In this document: one piece after another, positions 1,314-23,294 of the stretch
Numbering within the stretch: the first letter of the stretch is position 1
Layout: every line of letters begins with the position of its first letter
Assembly (NCBI GenBank): GCA_947452985.1
Contig: CANGEU010000014.1
Coordinates: 1-33,769, forward strand
Length of the DNA: 33,769 bases
Origin: Micrococcales bacterium
Lineage (GTDB): Bacteria; Actinomycetota; Actinomycetes; Actinomycetales; Microbacteriaceae
Reading direction: 5' to 3'
Notes under the pieces: model-generated
Database searches by the model: none
What the model saw: only the letters and a program-made list of their open reading frames with translations
Told to the model about the DNA's origin: nothing
Program-made: the position numbers and the translations under genes

Positions 1314-2354
1314 ATGAGCCCCAAGTCTAACGCCGCCAGCGGAAAACCATTCATCATCGCTGAGATTTCCGGCAACCACAACGGCAACCTGGAACGTGGC
1401 CTAGAGATCGTTCGCGCTGCCGCTGCAGCCGGTGCCAGCGCAGTCAAAATTCAGACCTACACCGCCGACACCATCACCTTGCCGGTCAGCACGCCAGCGT
1501 TTAAGGTGAGCGAAGGCCACGAACTTTGGGGCAACAAAACCCTTTACGAACTATACGAAGAAGCGCACACTCCGTGGGAGTGGCACAAGCCGATCTTCGA
1601 CCTCGCCAAAGAGCTTGGCATGCAGGCATTCAGCACCCCGTTCGACGAAACCGCGGTGGACTTCCTGGAATCACTGGATGTTCCGCTCTACAAGATTGCT
1701 TCGCTTGAAATCGTTGACCTGCCGCTGATCAAGCAGGTTGCTCAGACCGGTAAGCCAATGATTCTCTCGGTTGGCACCGCGTCGATTGGTGAAGTAGCCG
1801 ACGCCGTGGAGGCTGCCCGCGATGGCGGTTGCACCGACCTCACCCTACTTGCCTGCACCAGTTCATACCCGGCCAAGCCTGAAGACGCGAATCTGCTTCG
1901 CATCCCGGCGCTAGCTGAAATCTTCAACGTAAAGGTTGGCCTTTCTGACCACACGCTCGGAATTGGTGTAGCGGTTGCTGCCGTTGCTCTCGGCGCGACC
2001 GTAATTGAAAAGCACGTAACCCTGCGCCGTGCCGATGGCGGCGTCGACTCAGCTTTCTCACTGGAACCTGAAGAACTAAAGGCACTGGTTGACGAATGTA
2101 ACGCGGCTTATGTTGCTCGTGGTTCAGCACACGTCTGGACCACCAAGGCCGAAACCGAATCGCTGCGCCTGCGCCCTTCGCTTTACGTAACGAAGGCGGT
2201 CAAGGCCGGCGAGCTGATCTCACACGAGAACGTTCGCTCGGTTCGCCCTGCCGGGGGCCTTCCACCGAAGGACCTGCCGCTAGTGATTGGTCGCCACTTC
2301 TCCCAGGACGCCGAAATCGGCACACCTGTGGAGTGGTCACTAATTAATGACTAA
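1314..2354 (+). CDS. pseI: Pseudaminic acid synthase (NeuB family)
   Basis: A 346-residue enzyme condensing phosphoenolpyruvate with a 6-deoxy-diacetamido sugar to give pseudaminic acid in the cytoplasm. The N-terminal NeuB TIM-barrel opens with IIAEISGNHNG and carries AVKIQTYTADT, which is closer to PseI than to sialic acid NeuB. Further conserved blocks are FSTPFDETAVDFL, KIASLEI and GLSDHT. A C-terminal SAF (antifreeze-like) domain covers about residues 285-346. Start ATG 1314 has AAAGGAA about 5 nt upstream. The 3' end overlaps the acyltransferase start by 8 nt (ATGACTAA), which suggests translational coupling. Legionaminic acid synthase is the main alternative. Confidence 0.88.
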   Translation: MSPKSNAASGKPFIIAEISGNHNGNLERGLEIVRAAAAAGASAVKIQTYTADTITLPVSTPAFKVSEGHELWGNKTLYELYEEAHTPWEWHKPIFDLAKELGMQAFSTPFDETAVDFLESLDVPLYKIASLEIVDLPLIKQVAQTGKPMILSVGTASIGEVADAVEAARDGGCTDLTLLACTSSYPAKPEDANLLRIPALAEIFNVKVGLSDHTLGIGVAVAAVALGATVIEKHVTLRRADGGVDSAFSLEPEELKALVDECNAAYVARGSAHVWTTKAETESLRLRPSLYVTKAVKAGELISHENVRSVRPAGGLPPKDLPLVIGRHFSQDAEIGTPVEWSLIND

Positions 2355-4389
2355 GCGGGTCGTCAGACCAGACATCCAGTTCCTCAGGATGGTCGCGGTC
2401 CTGATGGTCACCCTTTTTCACTTTTGGCCGACCCTCCTGCCCGGCGGCTTTGCCGGCGTTGATGTATTTTTTGTAATTTCCGGTTACCTAATATCCAGCA
2501 GTCTGATCAAATCGGTTCGAAGCGAAGCGGGTTTGAACCTAGCTAGGTTTTGGTCCGGACGTGTCCGCCGTTTACTACCAGCAGCCATCGTGGTTTCCAC
2601 GCTCGCATTCATTGCGCTATTTGCTTTGGTGAACCCAGCCCAGCGCATCTCGTCGATCCAGCACTTCATCCCGAGCTTCCTATACTTCGAGAACATTCAA
2701 CTGCAGTTCGACTCAGTCGACTATTTTGCCGACCCGAACCCGAGTATCTACCAGCACTACTGGAGTCTTTCGGTTGAGGAGCAGTTTTACCTGATTTGGC
2801 CAATCGTGCTCCTACTAACTTGGCGAGCTTTCAAGAGTTTAGGCAAACTGCGAGCGGTTATCGTGGCTGCTTCCGCGGTTTCTTTCTGCTACGGGCTCTA
2901 CCTAACCTTCGCCAACCCAGCAGCCGCCTACTTCAACAGTTTCTCGCGCGCTTGGGAGTTTGGTGTTGGCGCCGTTTTGGCAACTCTCGTTTTCAAGAAA
3001 CAACTTCGTTTTGCCAGGGTGATTTCACTGGCCGGTCTAGCTCTAATTGGCGCGTCGATGTTTCTGATTGATCAGACCAGTCACTTCCCCGGCTACCTTG
3101 CTCTTGTCCCAGCGCTTGGAACCGTCCTGGTAATTGCATCGAACGCTAATGGTTGGCTGAAAAGTGTTTACGCATTCAAGCCGTTCCAGTTCCTCGGCGA
3201 CATAAGTTACAGCCTCTACCTCTGGCACTGGCCGGTCGTGGTCATTCTCACCTACTGGCTTGCCAAACACCCCAGCAACTTGCAGTTAGTGATCGCACTC
3301 GGTATCGCCGTGTTGCTTTCCTGGCTAACCAAGCGCTTCATCGAGGACCCGATTCGCTTCAACCACAAGCTAGCAACCGGCAAGTCTTCGCTGACCTTCA
3401 AATGGCTGGGTGCAAGTGTGGTGGCAATCATCGCGGTGGCAGCTCTCGGTGGAAGTTACAACACTGGCGTGATTGAACAGCGGCAGCGCGATCTTAAGAA
3501 ACAGCTCAGCGACAACGCGGGCTATTGTCTAGGTGCGGAATCTCTTCAAAACTTCGGACGAAGTTGCCAGCCAGTTCCCGAGAACCTTCGAATTCCATCG
3601 GACTACCAGTTGGTTTCCCAGATTTTTCCTGAAATCCAAGATTTGAAGTGTCGAGCAGACACTTTCGAGAAAGTTGTTAGGGTTTGTGATTTCGGGGACA
3701 AAAACTCCAATATCGAAATTGCCCTGGTTGGCGATTCTCACGCAGCACCATGGTTTTCGGCCATTCGCTCGGTCGTTCTCAAGAACCGTTGGCATCTGGT
3801 CACCTATTACAAGTCGGCTTGCGCCTTGGCTCCGGGTATGAGAACTGATACTGCTCCTGGAAAAGCCGCCAGCTGCGAGTGGTGGAATCACCAGGTCATG
3901 AAAAAACTTGAGTCGACCAAGACCGACATCGTGATTGTGGGCTATGGAGAACTCACTCTCAACCTGGTACAAAAACCTGGCGAAACCAGACTGGAAACTC
4001 AAACCAGCAGCCTTTCCCAGATGCTTGGCAGCCTCGAAGCGTCTGGTAAGACTGTAATCGCGATTCGAGATACTCCAGTTCCAGGCCCCAAATTGGCTTC
4101 CTGCCTGACCGAACATAGTCAAAACCCAAAGAAGTGCGACATGAAGAAGTCGGACGTTCTAAAACCGGTTGACGCCATGGAGCTGGCAAGCCGTCAGTAT
4201 CCGAGCGTGATTTTGGCCGACTTTACGAACTATTTCTGCTTGAGTCAGATCTGCCCGGCGCTGATCGGTGGAATCTATCCTTACCGCGACGACGACCATG
4301 TACTTTCTAACTACGCCGACACCGTCGCTCCAGTTTGGTCAAAGCTACTGGTGAAGGCCACCGAAGCTAGGGCTTCAACGGCACGATAA
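2347..4389 (+). CDS. Membrane O-acyltransferase (acyltransferase-3 plus SGNH domain)
   Basis: A 680-residue OafA-type protein that would O-acylate a surface glycan outside the membrane. Residues 1 to about 375 form a multi-pass Acyltransferase_3 domain, with the family's essential-type His25 in LFHFWP followed by GGFAGVDVFFVISGYL. One further membrane segment near residue 360 leads to an extracytoplasmic SGNH domain, with GDSH at 462-465 and the Asp-x-x-His dyad at D648 and H651. Length and order match two-domain OafA/YrhL proteins. Overlap with pseI suggests that pseudaminic acid or a glycan carrying it is the acceptor, but this is inference. The last 23 nt overlap the convergent nitroreductase gene. 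Confidence 0.88.
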   Translation: MTKRVVRPDIQFLRMVAVLMVTLFHFWPTLLPGGFAGVDVFFVISGYLISSSLIKSVRSEAGLNLARFWSGRVRRLLPAAIVVSTLAFIALFALVNPAQRISSIQHFIPSFLYFENIQLQFDSVDYFADPNPSIYQHYWSLSVEEQFYLIWPIVLLLTWRAFKSLGKLRAVIVAASAVSFCYGLYLTFANPAAAYFNSFSRAWEFGVGAVLATLVFKKQLRFARVISLAGLALIGASMFLIDQTSHFPGYLALVPALGTVLVIASNANGWLKSVYAFKPFQFLGDISYSLYLWHWPVVVILTYWLAKHPSNLQLVIALGIAVLLSWLTKRFIEDPIRFNHKLATGKSSLTFKWLGASVVAIIAVAALGGSYNTGVIEQRQRDLKKQLSDNAGYCLGAESLQNFGRSCQPVPENLRIPSDYQLVSQIFPEIQDLKCRADTFEKVVRVCDFGDKNSNIEIALVGDSHAAPWFSAIRSVVLKNRWHLVTYYKSACALAPGMRTDTAPGKAASCEWWNHQVMKKLESTKTDIVIVGYGELTLNLVQKPGETRLETQTSSLSQMLGSLEASGKTVIAIRDTPVPGPKLASCLTEHSQNPKKCDMKKSDVLKPVDAMELASRQYPSVILADFTNYFCLSQICPALIGGIYPYRDDDHVLSNYADTVAPVWSKLLVKATEARASTAR

Positions 4390-12760: not shown

Positions 12761-13801
12761 ATGACTAAGAACCAAGAAGTAACTTTCGGCCTGGACACCT
12801 TCGGCGACATGTCTCGCGACCTCGAGGGCAAAGAAATCTCGGCCGGCCAAACCATTCGCAACCTGATCGAGCAGGGAAAACTTGCCGACGAACTTGGGCT
12901 GAGTAACTTCAACGTTGGCGAACACCACCGCGACGATTTTGCAGTTTCTGCGCCAGACACCGTTCTCGCCGGCCTTGCCACAGTCACCAAAAACATCATT
13001 CTCGGAACCGGCGTCACCGTGCTTTCGAGCGAAGACCCAGTTCGCCTCTACCAGCGCTTTGCGACCATCGACGCCATGTCGAATGGCCGAACCGAAATCA
13101 CCGCCGGTCGAGGTTCGTTCATCGAATCCTTCCCCCTATTTGGTTACTCCATGCAGGACTACGAAGTTCTATTCGAGGAGAAACTCGAACTGCTCAAGGA
13201 ACTTCTAAAAGAAGAGCCAGTCACCTGGTCTGGCACCAAGCGAGCTAGCCTCAACAACCAGCAGGTTTACCCAAAGACCGAAGACAAGAACATTCGCCTT
13301 CGTGTTGGTGTTGGCGGAAGCCCAGAATCGGTTATTCGTGCAGCCCGTCTCGGTATACCTATGGCGTTGGCCATCATTGGCGGCGACCCTGCCCGCTTTG
13401 CACCGTTCGCCAAACTTTACCGAGACAGCCTCATGAAATTTGGTCACGGTCCGCTACCGATCTCAATTCACTCGCCAGGTCACATTGCCGAGACCGACGA
13501 CGAAGCATTTGAGCAACAGTGGCCAAACTACGCCATCAGCTTCGGACGAATCGGTCGCGAACGCGGCTGGGGACCAATGAGCATCGACCACTTCATCCAA
13601 GAGGTGAATCAAGGCTCGCTTTACGTTGGATCACCGGAAACTGTTGCCAAAAAGATCGTTCATGCGATCACTTCGGTGGGTGCGAACCGATTCGACCTAA
13701 AGTACGTAACCGGCCCAACTCCGCACGAACTTGCCATGAAGTCGATTGAACTTTATGCAACCGAGGTAGTGCCTCGAGTTAAGGCACTCCTTACTAAATA
13801 A
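12761..13801 (+). CDS. LLM-class flavin-dependent oxidoreductase
   Basis: A 346-residue luciferase-like monooxygenase (bacterial luciferase fold, FMN or F420 dependent). Visible blocks: FNVGEHHRDDFAVSAP near residue 50, GTGVTVLSSEDPVRLYQRFATIDAMSNGR near 87-115, and a C-terminal YVGSPETVAKKI. The substrate is not predictable. Unlike most genes here it shows neither a usable ribosome site nor an ideal -10 hexamer: TTTACT ends 6 nt before the ATG. Start ATG 12761 is the first in frame after the rlmN stop, 38 nt away. Confidence 0.88.
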   Translation: MTKNQEVTFGLDTFGDMSRDLEGKEISAGQTIRNLIEQGKLADELGLSNFNVGEHHRDDFAVSAPDTVLAGLATVTKNIILGTGVTVLSSEDPVRLYQRFATIDAMSNGRTEITAGRGSFIESFPLFGYSMQDYEVLFEEKLELLKELLKEEPVTWSGTKRASLNNQQVYPKTEDKNIRLRVGVGGSPESVIRAARLGIPMALAIIGGDPARFAPFAKLYRDSLMKFGHGPLPISIHSPGHIAETDDEAFEQQWPNYAISFGRIGRERGWGPMSIDHFIQEVNQGSLYVGSPETVAKKIVHAITSVGANRFDLKYVTGPTPHELAMKSIELYATEVVPRVKALLTK

Positions 13802-13857
13802 CACTGCTAGTTATCCGATAGATTTGAGCCTGTTCAAGTTCTAGAGGGGAACCCCAG

Positions 13858-16800
13858 ATGTCTAAAGTCACCAAATTTCTTGCGTCCGTAGCCGCCACAG
13901 CTTTAGTTCTTACGGGTCTAACTGTGATGCCGGCGCTCGCGGGTGGTGCAGGGGCTCCATACACGGTCACGCAGGTTAAAACCGGTATGCCGGTTTCCAG
14001 TGAACTCGTTGCCGGAACTACGCGGGTTTTCTGGAAAAACGGTGCAGAACTTTGGACTAGCGATGGCACGACAACTCAGTCGGTGCACACATTCGCGAGT
14101 CACGACTCCTTCGCTTTGACTCAGTCGAGCCCGCAGTACACGGAGGGCGGATTCTATGACACCAGCTATTACATTCACCGTTCGGTATTTGTGGGAGACA
14201 CGGTTTACTTCTGGGTAGCTTCTGCTACCAACGACTGGGACATTTGGAAGTCGAATGGAACAGTGGCCGGCACCGTGAAGGTAACTTCGCTAAGCCTGAA
14301 CTATGGAGTGCGCAACTCAGGTCAAACCCCTCCTTCGCTGTTTGTAAATGGAACCGACATCTACTTTTGGTCTGAGCGCTTCGACGTGAATTACAACCAC
14401 TTCCGCGATCTGCGTAAACTCAACACCCTCACCGGAACCAACGCAGTTGTTACCAACTCTCCAACCACCAACGTTTGCTCCGACCAAATGTTTGGTCACC
14501 AGTATTCCTTCGCAGTGGTTGCTGGAAAGCTTTACTTCGACTGGGTAACCGACTGCGTAAACCACGTTGGTGTAATCAACTTGGCCACCAACGCCTACAT
14601 TGACTTACAGCCATCCGGTCTCGCGTCTGGAAGCGTAATTTCCATGGCGACGCCGTCGGAGTTTTCCGTACTTGGAAGCAAGGTTTACTACATTGCTACC
14701 GAAGTAACCAGCGCCGACTTCGCAAACAACGCCCGTTGGAACTGGCAGTCTGAGCTTTACTCCACTGACGGCACGGTAGCCGGAACCTCAAAGGTTGCCA
14801 GCCTAAATCCTGGCAGCCTTGGCGCGGGAAACCCGAAGATGCCAATGCTGCGCCCGACCACCATTGGTAGTTACCTCTACTTCCTTGGTTGGGATTCTGC
14901 GCTAAGTGCAAACAGCATCTACCGAACCGACGGCACTTCCGCTCCGGTTGTTTGGATTCCGGGAGACACCTTCGGTAACGCTGGCGCTCGAACCAATACC
15001 CCTGCCTCGTGGGTAACCACCGGCGGGGTTACCTACCTTGTCGCAGATGCCCAGCATTCCAGCGGAGGTCAGCAGATGTACTCGGTAAACCTAGCCACCA
15101 AGGCTGTTACCTGGATTACCCCAACCCTTCCGGCAAGCGCCGACTCAGTTGGCATCATCGATCAGCCTTGGGCTGCCACCGACTACACCACTCCGATTAC
15201 CTGGGACGGAAAAGTGTGGTGGGTTGGTCGAACCAACGCCGACAACGGTGACAAGGGTTTGAACGTTTTCTACACCGACGGAACAGTCGCCAACACCGCG
15301 AACCTAACCGGCTACCTTGGCGATAACAATCAGGGTATTGGTTACATCGGTGACTACGCCGACATCGACCAGTTTGCTCGAAATGCCACTGTTCCACTAG
15401 CTGCTACCACCACTAGTGTTTGGTTCTTGCGTGGGCCTGCCGGTGCCAGCGATTGGTCGCTTTACAAGATTGCAGCCACTCCGGTAACCCCACCGCCACC
15501 ACCTCCGGTAACCCTCACCTGTGCTGCGGAAATTACGAAGCTCAAAGTTGAGGCCGAGACAGCTACCGCGCTGGACCCTGTTTTCAACAAGAACACCTGT
15601 GAGTACTCAATCAAGGTTGACGCCAAGACTTCAAAGGCAGACTTCACTCCAACCTTCGTTCCAGCCACGGTGAACGTGAAGGTCGGAGGAACTTCAATTA
15701 GCACCACATTGAAGTCCACCAAAACTCAGAGCGTGACTCTTGGAGCTTCTGGAACTACCACTCAGGTTGACTTTGTTTTTGGGTCAAACACCTACCGCGT
15801 GAATGTTCAGCGCGGCACTCCTGCAGTATCTGGTGCCAGGGACCAGAACTTCACCGCTCCAACTTTGAACGGGGCTGTAAAGACTGTCGACAAGGACGAG
15901 AAGAAAGAATCCGACGAGGACGGCAATAAGAAGAAGGTTGAGGTGACCATTATTGGTGGTGACTTCGATAAGAAGGTTGCCAAGTTGGACGACAACGGCA
16001 AGAAGGACGAAGTCTTTGCTGCCAAGGTTCCTGAAATTAACGGAACCGTTGAGAAGGTTAAGGTCGACGACGAGCACCGAATCATCGTGGCCGGTAACTT
16101 CACGACTCCAGAAGGTGACAAAGACATCATCCGTTTGAAGCCAGATGGCTCGAAGGATAAGAGCTTTGATGCACCGGACCTAGGTGGTTCGAATGCCAAG
16201 GTGAAGGATGTCGACATCCAGAAGGACGGCAAGATTGTGGTCGTCGGTGACTTCGATGATTCTTCGAAGTCAAACGTGAAGCGTTTGAAGGATGACGGCA
16301 AGGAAGACACAGTTTTCGAATCGAAACTTCCTGACATTGGCGGCGAAGTCAAGGCTGTGAAGGTTCAGGACGACGGCAAGATTTTGCTCGGAGGTCACTT
16401 CGAGAACGCGGGCGGCGATAACGACCACGACAAGATTGTCCGCGTTGAAAAAGACGGAAAGATTGACAACACCTTCAAACCGGCAATTAACGGTGCTCAC
16501 TTCAACGACGACGTCGAAGATATTGAGACTCAGAAAGACGGCAAGATCATCGTGGTTGGTAAGTCTGACAAGACTTCCGAAGGCGAAGCCGACCAGGTTA
16601 CCCGACTGAAGAAGGACGGCAAGGAAGACGAGACCTTCAACTTCGACGGCAACATTCCTGCCGGCAAGAAGGTTGAGTCGGTCAAGGTTCGCGACAGCGG
16701 CGACATCTACATTGCAGGTGACTTCGACAACGTTGGCGACGACGATGGCGACAAAATTGCCAAGGTGAAGAAGGACGGTCACGTTGACAACGACTTCAAC

Positions 16801-18324
16801 CCGGAGCACCAGGATGGCGATGTTCACGACGTTGAACTAGAGAAACACGGCAAGGTGTTCTTGGGCGGCGAGGGTTCCGGCGACGGCGACCGCGTTGACA
16901 AGCTTGAACAAGACGGCGACGACACCCCTCGATATGACTCGATCGATAACGAGCGTTCGGCGAACAAGGTTCCAACCGGTGTTCCAGGCCAGACCCACAT
17001 TCACGGTGATGGTTTCACCCCAGACACCACGGTGACCATCGGCGGAAAGCCGGCAACCGTGGTTTCGGTGGATGACCGCGGTGAAGACCTAGTCGTGCAG
17101 ATTCCTGCACCAGACAACGACCACAAGGGCGGAGCGGATCACAACCGTAAGCCTGCCGATGTTGTTATCTCGGTTCCAGGTGAGGATCCAATCACCGTTC
17201 CAGAAGCGTTTGGTTACACCGACCGCCTTGAGCCTCAGAAGATCACACCGAACGGTGACCACTTCAATTCCGATAAGGATGATGAAGATAAGAAGGGTAA
17301 GGTTCAGGACGACGAAGCCATCACTGGAAACATCCCAAGTGGTGAGCCGGTAGTTGCAGTATCAAAGACCCCTGAGGTTTGTACCGTCGACGACGAAAAC
17401 CGAGTTCACTACCTCCACCGTGGTGATTGCAAGGTTGTCATTGATGCACCGGCAACCTTGGGGTACGCTGACCCAGCACCGGTCACCGAGGTTATTCCGG
17501 TTGCAGGTCTTGACCCACAGTTGGCACCACCAACTCTTCCAGACCTAACCACCCCTTCGGTACCAGACACCGGCTACCAGCTGCCTCCAGCAGTTACTGC
17601 GGATCCTGAAATCCCAGTGGTCTTCGTGGCTACCACCCCAGATGTCTGTGTGGTCGGTACCGACGGTGTAGTTACCCCGATTGACACCTCGGTTGATTGC
17701 ACCATTCAGGTGACTACCCCGGGCACCACTATTTACGAACCGACTGCACCAACCGCACCACCGGTAACGTTCACCGTGCCACACACCGCTTGGATTCCTC
17801 CAACGCCGGTGGATGGCGTGGTTACGGAACCAACCGTGCCTTCGGTTTCGATTCCTGGCACTGGCGGTACCGCGATGCTTGGAAAGGACTTGAGCTTCAA
17901 GTACGACAAGGCGAAGGGCACGTTGACCCCAACCGCCTGGGGTATTTACTTCGGCCCAATCAAGGCAACCATTAACTACTCGTGGACCAAGGCGGACAGC
18001 TCAACCGGCACCGGCACCTGCGTGGTCAACTGGGGTGTCTTGAAGAAGTGGACGAAGCTCAGCAAGGCCGATCAGAAGAAGTACAAGAAGCCGCTGGCTG
18101 CCAAGGTGTTCACGACTACCGCCAACTGTAAGGTGAACCCGGCTGCCAAGGCTGCGCTTGCGGTTGCTGGTACTTCGTTCACAGCCACTTCAGATGTTCT
18201 TCGCACACGTATGTGGCCTGCCACCTACAAGCCGGAAAAGCCGATCATCCCAGGTGTTCGTCTGCAGCCGGTTCCAATTGAGCCAAGAACCCGTCACTAC
18301 ACGTTGGTAATCAACACCCAGTAG
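13858..18324 (+). CDS. Large secreted multidomain protein with delta-60 beta-propeller repeats
   Basis: A 1488-residue secreted protein of unknown function. Signal peptide 1-28 (cleavage after ALA). Residues about 60-540 carry ELYSTDGT-type repeats (near 64, 130, 299, 354 and 471). A Pro linker spans 545-550. A cadherin-like beta-sandwich lies at about 551-652 with Cys555 and Cys581. Seven delta-60 repeats cover about 662-1021, enough for one seven-bladed propeller. An IPT/TIG domain follows at about 1028-1123, then two Ig-like units each with a TPxVC...DC cysteine pair (about 1165-1300). The lysine-rich C-terminus lacks an LPXTG signal and a final membrane helix, so release or non-covalent wall binding is inferred. 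The propeller is unusually rich in Asp and Lys. ATG 13858 follows AGAGGGGA. It converges on the GT2 gene with a 3-nt gap. Confidence 0.85.
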   Translation: MSKVTKFLASVAATALVLTGLTVMPALAGGAGAPYTVTQVKTGMPVSSELVAGTTRVFWKNGAELWTSDGTTTQSVHTFASHDSFALTQSSPQYTEGGFYDTSYYIHRSVFVGDTVYFWVASATNDWDIWKSNGTVAGTVKVTSLSLNYGVRNSGQTPPSLFVNGTDIYFWSERFDVNYNHFRDLRKLNTLTGTNAVVTNSPTTNVCSDQMFGHQYSFAVVAGKLYFDWVTDCVNHVGVINLATNAYIDLQPSGLASGSVISMATPSEFSVLGSKVYYIATEVTSADFANNARWNWQSELYSTDGTVAGTSKVASLNPGSLGAGNPKMPMLRPTTIGSYLYFLGWDSALSANSIYRTDGTSAPVVWIPGDTFGNAGARTNTPASWVTTGGVTYLVADAQHSSGGQQMYSVNLATKAVTWITPTLPASADSVGIIDQPWAATDYTTPITWDGKVWWVGRTNADNGDKGLNVFYTDGTVANTANLTGYLGDNNQGIGYIGDYADIDQFARNATVPLAATTTSVWFLRGPAGASDWSLYKIAATPVTPPPPPPVTLTCAAEITKLKVEAETATALDPVFNKNTCEYSIKVDAKTSKADFTPTFVPATVNVKVGGTSISTTLKSTKTQSVTLGASGTTTQVDFVFGSNTYRVNVQRGTPAVSGARDQNFTAPTLNGAVKTVDKDEKKESDEDGNKKKVEVTIIGGDFDKKVAKLDDNGKKDEVFAAKVPEINGTVEKVKVDDEHRIIVAGNFTTPEGDKDIIRLKPDGSKDKSFDAPDLGGSNAKVKDVDIQKDGKIVVVGDFDDSSKSNVKRLKDDGKEDTVFESKLPDIGGEVKAVKVQDDGKILLGGHFENAGGDNDHDKIVRVEKDGKIDNTFKPAINGAHFNDDVEDIETQKDGKIIVVGKSDKTSEGEADQVTRLKKDGKEDETFNFDGNIPAGKKVESVKVRDSGDIYIAGDFDNVGDDDGDKIAKVKKDGHVDNDFNPEHQDGDVHDVELEKHGKVFLGGEGSGDGDRVDKLEQDGDDTPRYDSIDNERSANKVPTGVPGQTHIHGDGFTPDTTVTIGGKPATVVSVDDRGEDLVVQIPAPDNDHKGGADHNRKPADVVISVPGEDPITVPEAFGYTDRLEPQKITPNGDHFNSDKDDEDKKGKVQDDEAITGNIPSGEPVVAVSKTPEVCTVDDENRVHYLHRGDCKVVIDAPATLGYADPAPVTEVIPVAGLDPQLAPPTLPDLTTPSVPDTGYQLPPAVTADPEIPVVFVATTPDVCVVGTDGVVTPIDTSVDCTIQVTTPGTTIYEPTAPTAPPVTFTVPHTAWIPPTPVDGVVTEPTVPSVSIPGTGGTAMLGKDLSFKYDKAKGTLTPTAWGIYFGPIKATINYSWTKADSSTGTGTCVVNWGVLKKWTKLSKADQKKYKKPLAAKVFTTTANCKVNPAAKAALAVAGTSFTATSDVLRTRMWPATYKPEKPIIPGVRLQPVPIEPRTRHYTLVINTQ
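15841..16920 (+). repeat. Seven delta-60 protein repeats
   Basis: Codons 662-1021 encode seven repeats of about 45-54 residues following the pattern F-x-P...V..V..Q.DGKI.V.G.F......I.RL..DG..D. Sequence is diverged between copies, so this is a protein-level repeat and not a DNA tandem array. The third copy has 22 charged residues out of 50. Confidence 0.8.
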
Positions 18325-18327
18325 TGG

Positions 18328-19419
18328 TTAGAGGCTAGTAAGGAGCCCCGCACGATCGCCGGCTAGCAGTAGCGGGATGAGAGTGCGGGGCTGCTGCTTT
18401 AAAGAGGAGAAGTCGTTGAAGCCAGTTGCCTTGAAAATCTTCTTGGCGGCATCTGCCAAGGTGTCGAAGTAAAGCTGGTCGGTAACCTTCACGCTTGGCA
18501 GGTAGTAGCCGAGGTCGTGGGTGGCGACAATCCGCCCGTACTCGTAGAGCAGGGTTGGTTCGTTTTTCAAAACGTCTACGGTGTCAAAGATGGCTTTGAT
18601 GCGGTCGTTTAGGTTTCGCATTTCCGCGCGCTTTTGGGTGATCGACTTGGTGTCGCCGGTGCGAACGCGCCAAAGGTAGCTAGGAGCGCTCACCGAGCTG
18701 AAAGTACCAGCCGTTAGGTAGAGCTTGGTCATGACCGCCATGTCTTCGTAGAGCACGTTTTCTGGGAAACGGAAAGCTTGTCCTGCCCAAAGCTCGAACG
18801 AGATTAGTTTGTTCCAAGCCGTGACATCGCTCATGAACTCGGGCTGCTCGGTCAGGTTGGTGCGGTGCAGGTCTTTGGCGTAGAGCGCTGGGCGGCGAGA
18901 TTGCTTCTTAAGGCCCATCATGCGAACTGGGTTTCCAACCACCAGCTTCACCTGGTCGGCTTTGGCAGCTGCTAGGTAGTTAGCAATTGCGTTCGATGGC
19001 AGGAGGTCGTCGGAGTCAACGAAGAGAATCCAGTCGCTCTTAGCGATTGCCTGAACTCCAGTGTTTCGAGCCGCGCCGAGGCCGTTGTTTTTCTTGGTCA
19101 CCAGTTCGAAGTTTGGGTGCTCGGCAACAAAGCGCTTTGCAATCTTGGCCGAACCGTCGGTCGAACCGTCGTCGACCATAATCACCTTCACGTTGCGGTG
19201 AGTCTGAGCCGCCAGGCTCAGCAGGCAAACCTCCAGGTAGGCCTCAACGTTATAGATCGGAACCACAACGGTGACCAGCGGCAAACTGCTATCGATGGTT
19301 TTAGACGCACGCTTGCGAAGTTTGAGTAGGTGCCTTGCGTAAAGCAACTTCTCGGCTGGCTCGTTATCCAGAATGGCGTTTGCCACCTTGGCGAGAGGCT
19401 TTCGAAGTGCACCCAGCAT
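18328..19419 (-). CDS. GT2 family glycosyltransferase
   Basis: A 363-residue GT-A fold family 2 glycosyltransferase. The core begins near residue 47 with VTVVVPIYNVEAYLEVCL, followed by VDDGSTDGS, NNGLGAARNTG and the metal-binding FVDSDD. The N-terminal 45 residues are basic and the C-terminal part is unassigned. It starts 2 nt after the galU stop, the last gene of an operon with galU, a LicC-like gene and two TagF-family genes, so it likely adds a sugar to the wall polymer or its linkage unit. UDP-glucose made by GalU is a plausible donor, though unproven. Confidence 0.9.
   Translation of the reverse strand: MLGALRKPLAKVANAILDNEPAEKLLYARHLLKLRKRASKTIDSSLPLVTVVVPIYNVEAYLEVCLLSLAAQTHRNVKVIMVDDGSTDGSAKIAKRFVAEHPNFELVTKKNNGLGAARNTGVQAIAKSDWILFVDSDDLLPSNAIANYLAAAKADQVKLVVGNPVRMMGLKKQSRRPALYAKDLHRTNLTEQPEFMSDVTAWNKLISFELWAGQAFRFPENVLYEDMAVMTKLYLTAGTFSSVSAPSYLWRVRTGDTKSITQKRAEMRNLNDRIKAIFDTVDVLKNEPTLLYEYGRIVATHDLGYYLPSVKVTDQLYFDTLADAAKKIFKATGFNDFSSLKQQPRTLIPLLLAGDRAGLLTSL
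18344..18392. terminator. Long inverted repeat at the end of the convergent pair (weak terminator candidate)
   Basis: AGCCCCGCAC (18344-18353) and GTGCGGGGCT (18383-18392) are a perfect 10-bp inverted repeat with a 29-nt loop, lying inside the 3' end of the GT2 gene. On the plus strand GCTGCTTT follows, a poor T-tract. It might stop transcripts of the large secreted-protein gene. Confidence 0.4.
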
Positions 19420-19421
19420 GG

Positions 19422-20318
19422 TTAGAGAGTCTTGGCGTATTCCTTGAGCCAGGCGCTGAGCTCTGGGCCAATGTCTTCACGGCGAGTACCAAGGATCATG
19501 GCAGCCTTTAGGAAACCAACCTTGTCGCCGGTGTCGAAGCGGTCGCCGCTGAAGATTACTCCGCGAACCCCGCCGGCAACCTCTGGGTTTGCAACCGCTG
19601 CCTCTAGGGCGTCGGTTAGCTGAATTTCGCCGCCGCGGCCAGGCTTGGTTCGCTCAAGCAGGGTAAACATCTCTGGGCGAAGAACGTAGCGACCGATGAC
19701 CGCAAGATTTGATGGAGCATCTTCGGTCTTCGGCTTTTCAACTAGGTCGTTCACGATCACGACGTCGCCAACTTCGGTCTTGGTAACCGCAGCACAGCCG
19801 TACATCGAAATCTCGGAAGGGTCTACCTCCATAAGAGCAATGACGTTGTCGCCGGTCGCTTCGTGAATTTGAATCATGCGTCCGAGCAGAGGGTCGTGTG
19901 CGTCGATGACGTCGTCGCCGAGGAGAACGGCAAACGAGTTGTTGCCAATGTGCTGCTTGCCGGTGAGCACGGCGTGGCCGAGACCCTTAGGGTCGCCCTG
20001 TCGGGTGTAGTAGATGTCGGCGAGGTGGCTGGACTCTTGAACCTGCTCAAGGCGGTCTTCATCGCCCTTCGCCATCAGGGTCTGCTCAAGTTCGGCGACT
20101 CGGTCGAAGTGGTTTTCAAGGGCGCTCTTGTTGCGACCGGTGATCATCAGGATGTCGGTCAGGCCGGTGTCTACCGCTTCTTCAACGACGTACTGAATCA
20201 CTGGCTTGTCGACCAACGGGAGCATTTCTTTAGGCAGGGCCTTGGTGGCAGGAAGGAAGCGAGTTCCTAGTCCGGCAACCGGAATTAGGGCCTTGGTGAC
20301 CTTGTAACTTCTGGACAT
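19422..20318 (-). CDS. galU: UTP-glucose-1-phosphate uridylyltransferase GalU
   Basis: A 298-residue enzyme making UDP-glucose from UTP and glucose 1-phosphate. The N-terminal signature reads VAGLGTRFLPATKALPKEML, followed by VDKPVIQYVVEEA. GLGHAVL and the LVEKP block are also present. Length is normal. ATG 20318 follows AGGGGAAC. It lies 7 nt downstream of the LicC-like gene. Glucose 1-phosphate could also come from the phosphorylase-like enzyme encoded at 9985-11451, an inferred link between the sugar and cell-surface modules. Confidence 0.95.
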   Translation of the reverse strand: MSRSYKVTKALIPVAGLGTRFLPATKALPKEMLPLVDKPVIQYVVEEAVDTGLTDILMITGRNKSALENHFDRVAELEQTLMAKGDEDRLEQVQESSHLADIYYTRQGDPKGLGHAVLTGKQHIGNNSFAVLLGDDVIDAHDPLLGRMIQIHEATGDNVIALMEVDPSEISMYGCAAVTKTEVGDVVIVNDLVEKPKTEDAPSNLAVIGRYVLRPEMFTLLERTKPGRGGEIQLTDALEAAVANPEVAGGVRGVIFSGDRFDTGDKVGFLKAAMILGTRREDIGPELSAWLKEYAKTL

Positions 20319-20325
20319 TGTTCCC

Positions 20326-21018
20326 CTAGAACATTTCGTTTACGCGTTGAAGATCTTCGTCGAAGTCGATCTCGATGGCGTAAAGGTCTGAGATGTCGAT
20401 GGCCTTGAACTTCAGGCCGTCGCGCTCGATGGCAACTTCAATGCCGCGCTCGAAGTAGTCCTGGTCGCCCACTTCGTCTAGGCGTTCAATTAGCTTGGAC
20501 TTGTCGGCAGCTGAAACGTAGTTGATGCCAACAGCTTCGCCAAGTCCGCCAACAACGACCTTAGACAGTTCGTTGATGTAGCCGGCGTCGTCCAGGGTGT
20601 ATTTGACTTCTTCGTCGCTCACCTTTGAGGTGTTGACCACGATGAACGACTGGTTTGCGTCGATCTGCGGCTTCACGCGGTTTAGAACTTCTGGGTCGTA
20701 AACCACGTCGCCGTTCATCCACAGCACGCCGCCGTCGCCAGAAGCGCGAACCGCCTTGAGCAGCGACTTCGAGGTGTTGGTCTGGTCGTAGAGCTCGTTG
20801 TAAACGAAGGTTGCTTCAGGGAAGCGCTCGATGATTGCCTCGAGCTTGAAACCGACCACAATCATCAGGCGGTAGGTGTCACCGAAACCGTGCTTGATGT
20901 TGTCGATCTGCTGCTTCATGATTGAGCGGCCATCGCGGAGTTCGGTTAGCGGCTTTGGCAGTGGGCGAGCCAGTCTGGTGCCCATGCCCGCGGCGAGAAT
21001 TACTACCTGTTGAGACAT
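20326..21018 (-). CDS. LicC-like phosphocholine/polyol-phosphate nucleotidyltransferase
   Basis: A 230-residue sugar-nucleotidyltransferase-fold enzyme. The signature VILAAGMGTRLARPLPKPLTEL covers residues 5-26, and the metal-binding Asp lies in WMNGDVV near residue 104. The compact size and the C-terminal YAIEIDFDEDLQRVN resemble LicC/phosphocholine cytidylyltransferase-like proteins. Beside two glycerophosphotransferase-family genes, a CDP-alcohol donor for the wall polymer is the likely product (CDP-choline, or CDP-glycerol if specificity differs). No Shine-Dalgarno site is seen; TAAACT ends 6 nt before the ATG and starts with the stop codon of the upstream gene, so the gene may have its own leaderless promoter inside the operon. 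Confidence 0.82.
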   Translation of the reverse strand: MSQQVVILAAGMGTRLARPLPKPLTELRDGRSIMKQQIDNIKHGFGDTYRLMIVVGFKLEAIIERFPEATFVYNELYDQTNTSKSLLKAVRASGDGGVLWMNGDVVYDPEVLNRVKPQIDANQSFIVVNTSKVSDEEVKYTLDDAGYINELSKVVVGGLGEAVGINYVSAADKSKLIERLDEVGDQDYFERGIEVAIERDGLKFKAIDISDLYAIEIDFDEDLQRVNEMF

Positions 21019-21024
21019 AGGTCA

Positions 21025-21030
21025 AGTTTA
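21025..21030 (-). promoter_or_regulatory. Internal -10 box TAAACT formed partly by a stop codon
   Basis: On the minus strand TAAACT precedes the ATG at 21018 by 6 nt. Its first three bases are the TAA stop (21030-21028) of the upstream glycerophosphotransferase gene. Confidence 0.5.
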
Positions 21031-22134
21031 GGCGTGGAACACCGCATCGACCACTCTTGCCGATGCCTTTCCGTCTTCTAGCCGGTTGAACTTTTTGCGC
21101 CAATTCTTGTAGTTTTGCGCGAATTTGGCTTCGGTTTTGGGCAGAGTCTTTAAAACTTGGACAACCTCGGCGGCAGATTTTAGGATCGGTCCCGGTGCTT
21201 CCTTCTCGAAATCGAAATAGAACCCTCGAAGTGCACGGTAGCTGTCTAGGTCTGGGCAGAGAAACAGCATGGGTTTGCCGGTAACGCTGAAGTCAAACAT
21301 AACCGATGAATAGTCGGTGACCAGAACATCGGCTGCTAGATATAGGTCGGTTACGTCTGGGTAGTCGGTAACGTCGATGGTTCCATCGGAAAGTTTGCGT
21401 TCGCTGGCGGCGGTGTTGGTGTGGCCGCGATAAAGCAGCGTGAAGTTGCTCGGAAGTTTTATCTGTTCCAGGTTGTTTACTGAGGCCCAGTTGCCAGCTT
21501 CGTCGCGGGCATTGTCGCGCCAGGTTGGGGCGTAGAGCAGCACGGTTTGGCCGGCCGCGATTCCGAGCTTCTCTCGAAGTCCTTGCGATTTCGGTTTAGC
21601 CAGTCGGTCGTTGCGCGGATAGCCAGTTTCCAGAAGGCGCCCGCGGAAACCGAAGGCTCGAGGGAAAATCTCACTGCTGAACTGGTTAGGGGAAACCAGG
21701 TAATCCCAGTAGCCAGCTTCGCGCTTCATCGCGTTGTTGTAGCCCTCGGTCAACTGGTTCTTGTCGATGTCTTTGCCAATGCGCTTCAGCGGTGTTCCGT
21801 GCCAAGTCTGTAGATAGATCTGCCCAGGACGCTTTCGGAAATACTGCGGCAGGTTGTTGTTACTGACTAAATATTTGGATTGGGCTAGGGCGGCAAACCA
21901 CGACGGCGTGCCAACCACGACCTTCGATGCGCCGGCGGGGACTTCCTGAGCGTCGTCGATTACCGCCCAAACCTTTTTCAGTTTCGGCTGGGTTTTTTGT
22001 AATTCGCGAAAAATGTCGAGCGGGGAGTCGCTCACCTGGCGACCACCGAACGAAACGAACAGCACCTGGCTCACAAGTTTGCCGGAGCGCGGTTTGTAGG
22101 TTAGGCGGCGGGTGACCTTCTCGGTAAATGCCAT
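21028..22134 (-). CDS. CDP-glycerol glycerophosphotransferase family protein (TagF-like)
   Basis: A 368-residue member of the Glyphos_transf family, which adds glycerol phosphate or related units to teichoic-acid-like polymers at the inner face of the membrane. Diagnostic motifs: WHGTPLKRIG with His112, GYPRND at 171-176, APTWRD, YRGHTN with His238, and TDYSSVMFDF at 273-282, which is the CDP-ligand pocket of TagF. It lacks the long N-terminal extension of Bacillus/Staphylococcus TagF, in keeping with TagB-like or actinobacterial forms. Its ATG overlaps the preceding stop by one base (TAATG). Specificity for glycerol versus another polyol is not visible. Confidence 0.88.
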   Translation of the reverse strand: MAFTEKVTRRLTYKPRSGKLVSQVLFVSFGGRQVSDSPLDIFRELQKTQPKLKKVWAVIDDAQEVPAGASKVVVGTPSWFAALAQSKYLVSNNNLPQYFRKRPGQIYLQTWHGTPLKRIGKDIDKNQLTEGYNNAMKREAGYWDYLVSPNQFSSEIFPRAFGFRGRLLETGYPRNDRLAKPKSQGLREKLGIAAGQTVLLYAPTWRDNARDEAGNWASVNNLEQIKLPSNFTLLYRGHTNTAASERKLSDGTIDVTDYPDVTDLYLAADVLVTDYSSVMFDFSVTGKPMLFLCPDLDSYRALRGFYFDFEKEAPGPILKSAAEVVQVLKTLPKTEAKFAQNYKNWRKKFNRLEDGKASARVVDAVFHA

Positions 22135-23294
22135 TACTTGCCCAGGATCGCCTTCGTGGCCTTCATGAACAAAGCGTCAGCCTTCTGGGTGTCTGCCCCG
22201 GCAATGTAGTACGCGCGAATCTTTTTGCGCTTGGCGGCCAGTTTTGCGTCGTCGTTCAATAGCTCGTTAGTTAGCGCATCCTTTTGGGTGAGCACATTCC
22301 CACCCTCGGCAATTGGGTAGCGCTTAGTGAACTTTGCTGGCGACTCGTCCATGCTGACCAGCAGGTAGGGCTTCAACGAGTAAAGCCAGTCGCTGACAAT
22401 TCCGGAAAGGTCTGAAATTAGAACGTCGCTCAGATTCACAACCTGAGATACGGTTCGTTCACTTTCGGCAGCTGGGCCATACAGGTGATCCTTGCCATCG
22501 GCCTTGAGTAGTTCCCAAACCTGTTCGATGATGGCGCGGTCGCTAGCGTCGCGGTGCGAGAACGGGTGCGGGCGGAACACTACTCGGTGCCCCAGGCGAA
22601 TCAGTTCGCGGGTGTAAGCCGGCGCGAGCCCGAGGCTGGTGTAAACCTCGCCGTCGGCTGAGCCACCCCAGGTTGGGGCAATCAGAACGGTCTTACGTTT
22701 TCCAGCTGGCTTGGATGCCACCTTGATGTCGGCAAGCTGCGGGCGACCGACCAAAACGAACTTCTCTTTGCGGATCAGAACGCCGTTGCGCTCATAACGG
22801 TCAACTGCCGCCTGGCCGGAAACAAAGATTTTGGTGAACATGCCGGTGGCTGGGTTGAACGAAGCGGTCTTCTCGCTGTCGCCGTGCAAAAGCTGCACAT
22901 GCACGATGCCTGGGTACTTCGCGGCGTCCGAGTTATAAGGAGCGTTGTTCACATAAAAGAGGAGTTTCAGTTCGCGGTTGTTTGGCACCTGCTCGAAGTG
23001 CTTCACAAGATGAACTGGCGCCTTAGTCAACTTCTTGATGTGAGGCACGAGATCTCCGTTTCGAATAATCACATCGAATGGTTCGCCAACCTTCTCGAAA
23101 ATTGGAAGCCAAAGTTTCAGTTGGTAAAGCGCTGCCACCGAGCCGTCGAAGAGCACAGCGAACCGAACCGAAGACGAATAGCCGGCGGCGGTAGCACGAG
23201 GACGAAGCCGACGAGCGATAGCGGCCGAAGCGCGCGAAACAAAGTCGAATCCGGAAGCAACCGGAGCCAGGGTCTTACGAAGCGCAGAGGTCAT
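22134..23294 (-). CDS. Second CDP-glycerol glycerophosphotransferase-family protein, diverged
   Basis: A 386-residue protein of the same family. The motifs are recognisable but altered: LLHGDSEK with His137 where the neighbour has WHGTPLK, VGRPQ, APTWGG, RPHP with His243, and SDLSG at 294-298 in place of TDYSS. About 40 basic, Ala-rich residues come first and may bind the membrane surface. The divergence suggests a different step from the next gene, for example priming versus chain extension, or a different donor. It is the first gene of the operon. No ribosome site is seen; TAAACT ends 6 nt before the ATG. Confidence 0.8.
   Translation of the reverse strand: MTSALRKTLAPVASGFDFVSRASAAIARRLRPRATAAGYSSSVRFAVLFDGSVAALYQLKLWLPIFEKVGEPFDVIIRNGDLVPHIKKLTKAPVHLVKHFEQVPNNRELKLLFYVNNAPYNSDAAKYPGIVHVQLLHGDSEKTASFNPATGMFTKIFVSGQAAVDRYERNGVLIRKEKFVLVGRPQLADIKVASKPAGKRKTVLIAPTWGGSADGEVYTSLGLAPAYTRELIRLGHRVVFRPHPFSHRDASDRAIIEQVWELLKADGKDHLYGPAAESERTVSQVVNLSDVLISDLSGIVSDWLYSLKPYLLVSMDESPAKFTKRYPIAEGGNVLTQKDALTNELLNDDAKLAAKRKKIRAYYIAGADTQKADALFMKATKAILGK

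Follow-up and report, generated by a model that had tools for sequence, protein, structure and literature searches.

LPXTG sortase substrates are secreted, modular proteins with Ig repeats. P0001, a large protein encoded in the 33,769-nucleotide stretch of DNA analysed here (the window), resembles them in being probably secreted, in being modular and in carrying Ig repeats, but it lacks the C-terminal LPXTG motif and the hydrophobic segment. With the ELWxxDGT repeat proteins (TIGR04534) it shares several TDGT-type hairpins at regular spacing, although it scores under the cut-off of that family and several of its units are without the motif; with the delta-60 (DUF5122) proteins it shares scores over both family cut-offs, seven repeats and a propeller model. 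In the S-layer protein SlpA of Lactobacillus brevis, a terminal region of positive charge is reported to be enough for attachment to wall fragments (PMC2571106), and the basic C-terminal domain (CTD) of P0001 can be likened to this region by charge and position, a likeness by description and not by sequence. Among the titles and abstracts examined in one open-licence library, no study dealt with the cell retention of surface proteins in small-genome actinomycetes, and searches of that library found none on the delta-60 repeat, on ELWxxDGT or on an Aquiluna surface protein. P0001 combines, in an arrangement that is new, largely familiar parts with one uncatalogued tail domain, and we put at about even the chance that it is a modular surface protein, accessory and secreted, docked to the wall by its CTD and displaying its propellers.

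The gene is an uninterrupted frame of 1488 codons from ATG to TAG, as seen in the list of open reading frames and in the translation; both this length and its rank as the largest gene, which the initial annotation had given, hold for the window, where the runner-up ORF has 680 aa. The source genome is 1.42 Mb in 39 contigs and 92% complete, and the G+C content of the window is 54%. The secretion proposed at that time is likely: the signal peptide predicted by eye reads MSKVTKFLASVAATALVLTGLTVMPALA, followed after the putative cleavage site by GG, and the top three 19-residue hydropathy windows of the protein begin at residues 7, 10 and 11, near the N-terminus. The protein has ten cysteines, grouped as five pairs of near neighbours (207/233, 555/581, 1175/1191, 1264/1281 and 1388/1424) that are probably joined as disulfides. 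The features of the gene and its surroundings are collected in Table 1.

Table 1. Positions in the window of the P0001 gene, its parts and neighbouring features.
Feature	Residues	Positions	Strand	Basis
Stretch missing in nearest relative G066, whose flanking genes are adjacent (empty site)		13799..18331	+	DNA comparison
GAGGGG, likely ribosome-binding site, 5' of ATG		13844..13849	+	assignment by eye
P0001, whole gene	1488 aa	13858..18324	+	
Sec-type signal peptide, predicted (cleavage ALA/GG)	1-28	13858..13941	+	by eye
ELWxxDGT-like repeat region, probable beta-propeller	about 50-545	14005..15492	+	TIGR04534 below cut-off; leave-one-out test
Cadherin-like beta sandwich	562-652	15541..15813	+	PF12733, 25.5 bits, cut-off 24.2, marginal
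Supercharged block	656-1170	15823..17367	+	D/E/K/R composition
Delta-60 (DUF5122) repeats, cysteine-free, predicted seven-bladed propeller	660-1028	15835..16941	+	Pfam/NCBIfam, AlphaFold2, Foldseek, VIA
Charged stretch, predicted strands in first half	1071-1168	17068..17361	+	AlphaFold2, low confidence after model residue 460
Ig-like repeat 1 (Cys 1175/1191)	1147-1216	17296..17505	+	L030 Ig profile, 20.8 bits
Ig-like repeat 2 (Cys 1264/1281)	1223-1310	17524..17787	+	L030 Ig profile, 26.6 bits
Basic CTD (Cys 1388/1424)	1342-1488 (~147)	17881..18321	+	genus searches, profile A1
CDP-glycerol glycerophosphotransferase, teichoic-acid polymerase type		21028..22134	-	PF04464, 355.3 bits

Upstream of P0001 lies a gene for a luciferase-like monooxygenase, which is matched at E <= 1e-60 in 52 of the 67 genomes of the genus, and we compared 20 of these 52 neighbourhoods (5.6-12.5 kb each); P0001 had no match by tblastn at E <= 1e-8 in any of the 20. 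The nearest relative by the monooxygenase gene, G066 (96% identity), keeps the gene order rlmN, monooxygenase, GT2, galU, NTP transferase and polymerase without P0001, the polymerase gene being cut by the end of the compared stretch. DNA matches between the window and G066, at 84-85% identity, run up to 13798 and start again at 18332 of the window, whereas in G066 both break points fall on a single base. The P0001 gene is accessory, as is seen from this exact empty site in its nearest relative; the site could reflect either a gain here or a loss in G066. Natural transformation has been reported for Rhodoluna lacicola (PMC11577799), and by analogy it could explain a gain of P0001 without a mobile element. 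In the compared stretches of G017 and G061, nothing at this place matched the GT2 and polymerase genes. Genome G001 (L147:2200-8495) has two other secreted-looking frames, of 1069 and 1003 aa, whose C-termini are basic (+18 and +11) and which are at most a few kb away from the monooxygenase gene, a hint that surface genes may accumulate here.

When the rest of the genus (66 genomes) was searched with residues 28-551 of P0001, nothing matched at E <= 0.001. In a search of 59 genomes with whole P0001, the matches were confined to residues 1152-1484, in five genomes besides its own. No relative was found when genome_contigs were scanned with P0001 or viral_contigs with its two repeat regions, and the sequences of the PDB gave a single hit at E 0.52.

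In the N-terminal region, nine hairpins picked by eye, at residues 55, 114, 166, 223, 274, 338, 390, 451 and 519, are spaced by 51-68 residues. A leave-one-out test with 300 shuffles for each hairpin left six that are convincing, beaten by 0, 0, 0, 2, 7 and 9 of the 300 shuffles; the weak ones at 166, 223 and 390 were beaten by 30, 96 and 36. The TDGT repeats of the initial annotation can thus be kept for the six hairpins that stand out among the nine, whereas the TIGR04534 score of P0001, 52.6 bits where the cut-off is 65, places it outside the formal family. That annotation had also suggested two propellers, of which this first one is likely from the sequence repeats and the second is supported by structure prediction as described below. 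The cadherin-like sandwich between them, which had likewise been noticed, is recovered marginally (Table 1); Cys 581 lies within it, and Cys 555, its probable partner, shortly upstream.

Assignment of the second repeat region is firmer. Entire P0001 scores 94.6 bits with DUF5122 (PF17164; cut-off 27) and 84.4 bits with delta_60_rpt (TIGR02608; cut-off 76.5), although no single repeat passes 76.5 bits alone, the best having 33.6. The count of exactly seven repeats made at first reading was correct: seven consecutive units of 48-55 residues span residues 666-1028, with a DG..D..F signature from which the first unit deviates by NG and the last in D..F. An AlphaFold2 model of residues 656-1171, made from the single sequence, consists almost entirely of strands with two short helices (mean pLDDT 63.8, pTM 0.60). 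With this model Foldseek retrieved 197 PDB chains at E <= 0.001, with CylK at the top (E 1.8e-11) and NHL and WD-type propellers in the upper rows, and VIA-align 2 gave Z 30.8 and rmsd 3.4 over 333 residues against CylK, Z 28-29 for two designed seven-bladed propellers, about 29 for RACK1 and 29.1 for 2ymu. The structure prediction that had been recommended as a check of the second propeller therefore supports it, and the delta-60 part of P0001 is predicted to fold as a seven-bladed propeller. Such a fold is not new for DUF5122, because 2ymu, found here among the VIA rows, is listed as a propeller template for this family in an earlier modelling paper (PMC8078820). Of the 67 genus genomes, 3 have delta-60 matches, as do 46 of the 394 in a class sample.

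Because CylK, the best structural match, is a propeller-containing enzyme, one can ask whether P0001 is an enzyme or an enzyme-like receptor, with its delta-60 propeller catalytic or binding a small molecule as in CylK. We regard this as improbable, since the identity to CylK is only 15-18% and since many propellers of differing function reach Z 28-30, so that the match to CylK reflects the fold.

The initial annotation had also pointed out the strong charge of the delta-60 part (22 of 50 residues in one repeat), unlike the domain before it, and composition agrees well with this: D, E, K and R make up 38.3% of residues 656-1070 and 12.5% of residues 32-545, and each repeat has 19-26 such residues among its 48-55. 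What had been overlooked is that the high charge extends beyond the propeller to about residue 1170 (33.7% in residues 1071-1168), a continuation that distinguishes P0001 from its delta-60 homologues. In 21 delta-60 regions of the class, delimited from first to last signature while residues 656-1070 of P0001 were set by hand, the D/E/K/R fraction averages 19.4% (SD 4.0, maximum 32.1%); the charged fraction of P0001 is about double, and its lysine content is 13% against 0.3-5.6%. These 21 are the parsed ones of 29 loci tried (27 of the class and 2 of the genus), 8 with too few signature motifs, both genus loci included, having been dropped.

We also examined where in the repeat the charge resides, by comparing P0001 with 68 repeats from the 21 loci. 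Variable columns are charged in 53% of cases in P0001 and 27% in the homologues, and core columns are hydrophobic in 80% and 90%; core cells are charged in 13% against 1.4%, so that the core is somewhat eroded. On the basis of the values for variable and core columns, the propeller has been supercharged with both signs while its core has mostly been kept. The supercharged variable positions would lie at the surface, and possible roles of such a surface are high local solubility, ion binding and charged-polymer binding. If this is true, nature would here offer a counterpart to the proteins supercharged in laboratories, a case in which about half of the variable positions are charged and the hydrophobic core is mostly retained.

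The erosion of the core, together with runs of K, D and E in repeat 1, the lack of the gene in G066 and the lack of a second sequence for a selection test in the remaining 66 genus genomes, would also fit a drifting low-complexity insertion without function in a decaying gene. To this explanation we give little credence, because a frame of 1488 codons has stayed open, the core is mostly hydrophobic with DG and D..F kept in six of the seven repeats or nearly so, the propeller is predicted from the single sequence, and the ten cysteines, all outside the delta-60 part, form five close pairs.

As a separate observation, one column has the residues D K D K E K E across the seven repeats and is Ala in 38 of the 68 homologous repeats. 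This may be chance, and we do not claim an alternating ring of acidic and basic residues, given the large number of columns looked at and the difficulty of aligning repeat 1.

Behind the propeller, the string of domains proposed earlier stands for most of its parts, with two corrections: the IPT/TIG domain was not recovered, and the domain at the C-terminus had been missed. IPT/TIG (PF01833), whose proposed place corresponds to the charged stretch of residues 1071-1168, found no match when Pfam was searched with whole P0001 at E <= 1 or with residues 1060-1175 alone at E <= 10. Both Ig units were confirmed by a profile built from the Ig repeats of L030, a protein of the same genome, which matches twice and covers a cysteine pair each time; the bacterial Ig-like family PF22359 gives 24.8 bits on repeat 2, below its cut-off of 27.

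The CTD is common to other large proteins of the genus. The last 156 residues of P0001 match in 12 of the 67 genomes, and profile A1, made from 15 CTD ends with P0001 among its rows, gives 27 matches in 20 of the 67, 15 of the matches being rows of A1 themselves. P0001, itself a row, scores 135.7 bits. In 26 of the 27 matches the domain ends no more than 8 residues from the end of the frame, the remaining one being a 46-residue frame with an internal stop. Six columns of A1 are invariant (two Cys, G, R, P and T), and the P0001 domain has all marks of the family, namely a match at the frame end, the Cys pair, R-x(4)-P-x-T and basicity (net +15). When the 15 rows were compared with Pfam and NCBIfam, only single weak hits appeared (best E 0.05 and 0.038), and PDB sequences gave none at E <= 5.

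Matches of the CTD profile are absent from 47 of the 67 genomes, and 17 of the 22 with completeness of at least 90% and contamination of at most 5% have none. A family sample gave matches in 4 of 398 genomes, two of the genus and two of one other genus, and the order (1/297) and class (1/394) samples, which overlap, gave the source genome only.

In the source genome itself there are three copies. One is at the end of L030 (7511-15913 of contig C1), a frame of 2801 residues that begins like a signal peptide, has a front rich in glycine, is matched 25 times by its own Ig-repeat profile and shares the basic tail of P0001; another is at the end of L031 (3173-7603 of contig C18), a frame of 1477 residues with a signal-peptide-like start and three Ig repeats. 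The giant proteins L030, L032 and L034 resemble P0001 in their signal-peptide-like start, in the family to which their Ig repeats belong and in the CTD at the end, but have 22-25 Ig repeats instead of two, and their fronts are unrelated to P0001 by BLAST. Among 14 other CTD proteins, some of them cut by contig ends, 12 carry 2-25 Ig repeats and two none, as scanned with a profile made from one of these 14.

Comparison of P0001 with ten relatives (among them L041, a divergent CTD member outside A1) illustrates how differently front and tail behave. At E <= 1e-3, residues 61-400 were alike in 2 of the 55 pairs, as against 32 for the last 160 residues; by single-sequence BLAST, the last 160 residues of P0001 match 7 of the ten. 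No obvious partner gene was found beside the CTD genes among the frames of at least 550 residues examined. A structure model of residues 1170-1488 is poor (pLDDT 45.2) and has predicted strands with short helices in the CTD at low confidence, and we make no claim on its fold; the best Foldseek match of this model, an ester-bond adhesin repeat at E 1.6e-3, was not counted, because none was below 1e-3.

We next consider how P0001 may be held at the cell. The initial annotation had seen no wall anchor, and in the sense of an LPXTG tail this is right: a sortase gene is present in the genome, and P0001 nevertheless has no such tail at its C-terminus, the motifs VPDTG, VPHTA and IPGTG lying internally at residues 1235-1332. 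Past residue 40 the 19-residue hydropathy peaks at 1.54, at residue 1254, and there is accordingly no C-terminal hydrophobic segment. The CTD, however, found in 20 of the 67 genomes, is a plausible non-covalent anchor. In all 27 parsed CTD loci the last 130 residues are basic (net +11 to +22, pI at least 9.8), whereas the 160 residues upstream of the domain have a mean net charge of -4.5 (26 values) and are basic in 3 of 26; 29 loci had been given, of which L076 and L077 were unparsed, and the fragment L067 was excluded. As controls, 16 secreted-like ORFs not flagged as CTD had a mean of +3.9, with four at +13 or more, one of which, L041, resembles a divergent CTD, and 42 other ORFs had a mean of -1.9, with three at +11 or more; the signal-peptide rule behind this division was crude, and some of the flagged proteins look cytoplasmic. 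Basicity as a mark unique to the CTD was ruled out, since basic ends also occur in some other secreted-like proteins, and for the same reason it is support, though not proof, for binding to an anionic wall polymer.

The genes converging on P0001 are relevant to this point. The minus-strand cluster at 18328-23294 comprises a GT2, two nucleotidyl transferases and two genes of the CDP-glycerol glycerophosphotransferase type, one in Table 1 and a second, weaker one (39.5 bits), and these two genes make a poly(glycerol phosphate)-type polymer likely. From the sequences we infer that the CTD would be a sortase-independent retention domain binding an anionic wall polymer. The domain might instead be a folding or end-cap domain of the Ig stalk, or a secretion aid, and P0001 might then be released from the cell to act in soluble form as a binding protein or scavenger. 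Its two invariant cysteines, the strands and short helices predicted for it at low confidence, its position after Ig repeats in 12 of the 14 other proteins scanned and the lack of an LPXTG-type tail agree with such a role, which we nevertheless consider rather unlikely, because a cap would not need the strong basicity of 27 of 27 parsed tails and because two of the 14 proteins have no detected Ig repeats.

Under our preferred reading, that of a wall-docked display protein, P0001 would be exported by Sec, and its CTD would dock on an anionic wall polymer, for example poly(glycerol phosphate), without sortase. The two Ig repeats would serve as a short stalk, and the two probable beta-propellers, with the beta sandwich between them, would be displayed outward at the front. 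The second propeller, whose charge is evident in the sequence and whose fold is predicted, would present a supercharged surface with a possible binding function, and the propellers would offer a face to which ligands bind, whether cations, glycans or another cell. More tentatively, and with less than even confidence, we propose that the CTD is an undescribed sortase-independent wall-attachment signal of this small-genome actinomycete lineage, a common socket for ever-changing, recombined display modules, here a supercharged zwitterionic propeller. As a handle, the CTD lists candidate surface proteins of the genus and makes the mode of wall attachment testable.

Elsewhere in the window, at 1314-4389, a gene for a NeuB-type synthase adjoins one for an acyltransferase-SGNH fusion, suggesting a nonulosonate or a related surface sugar.
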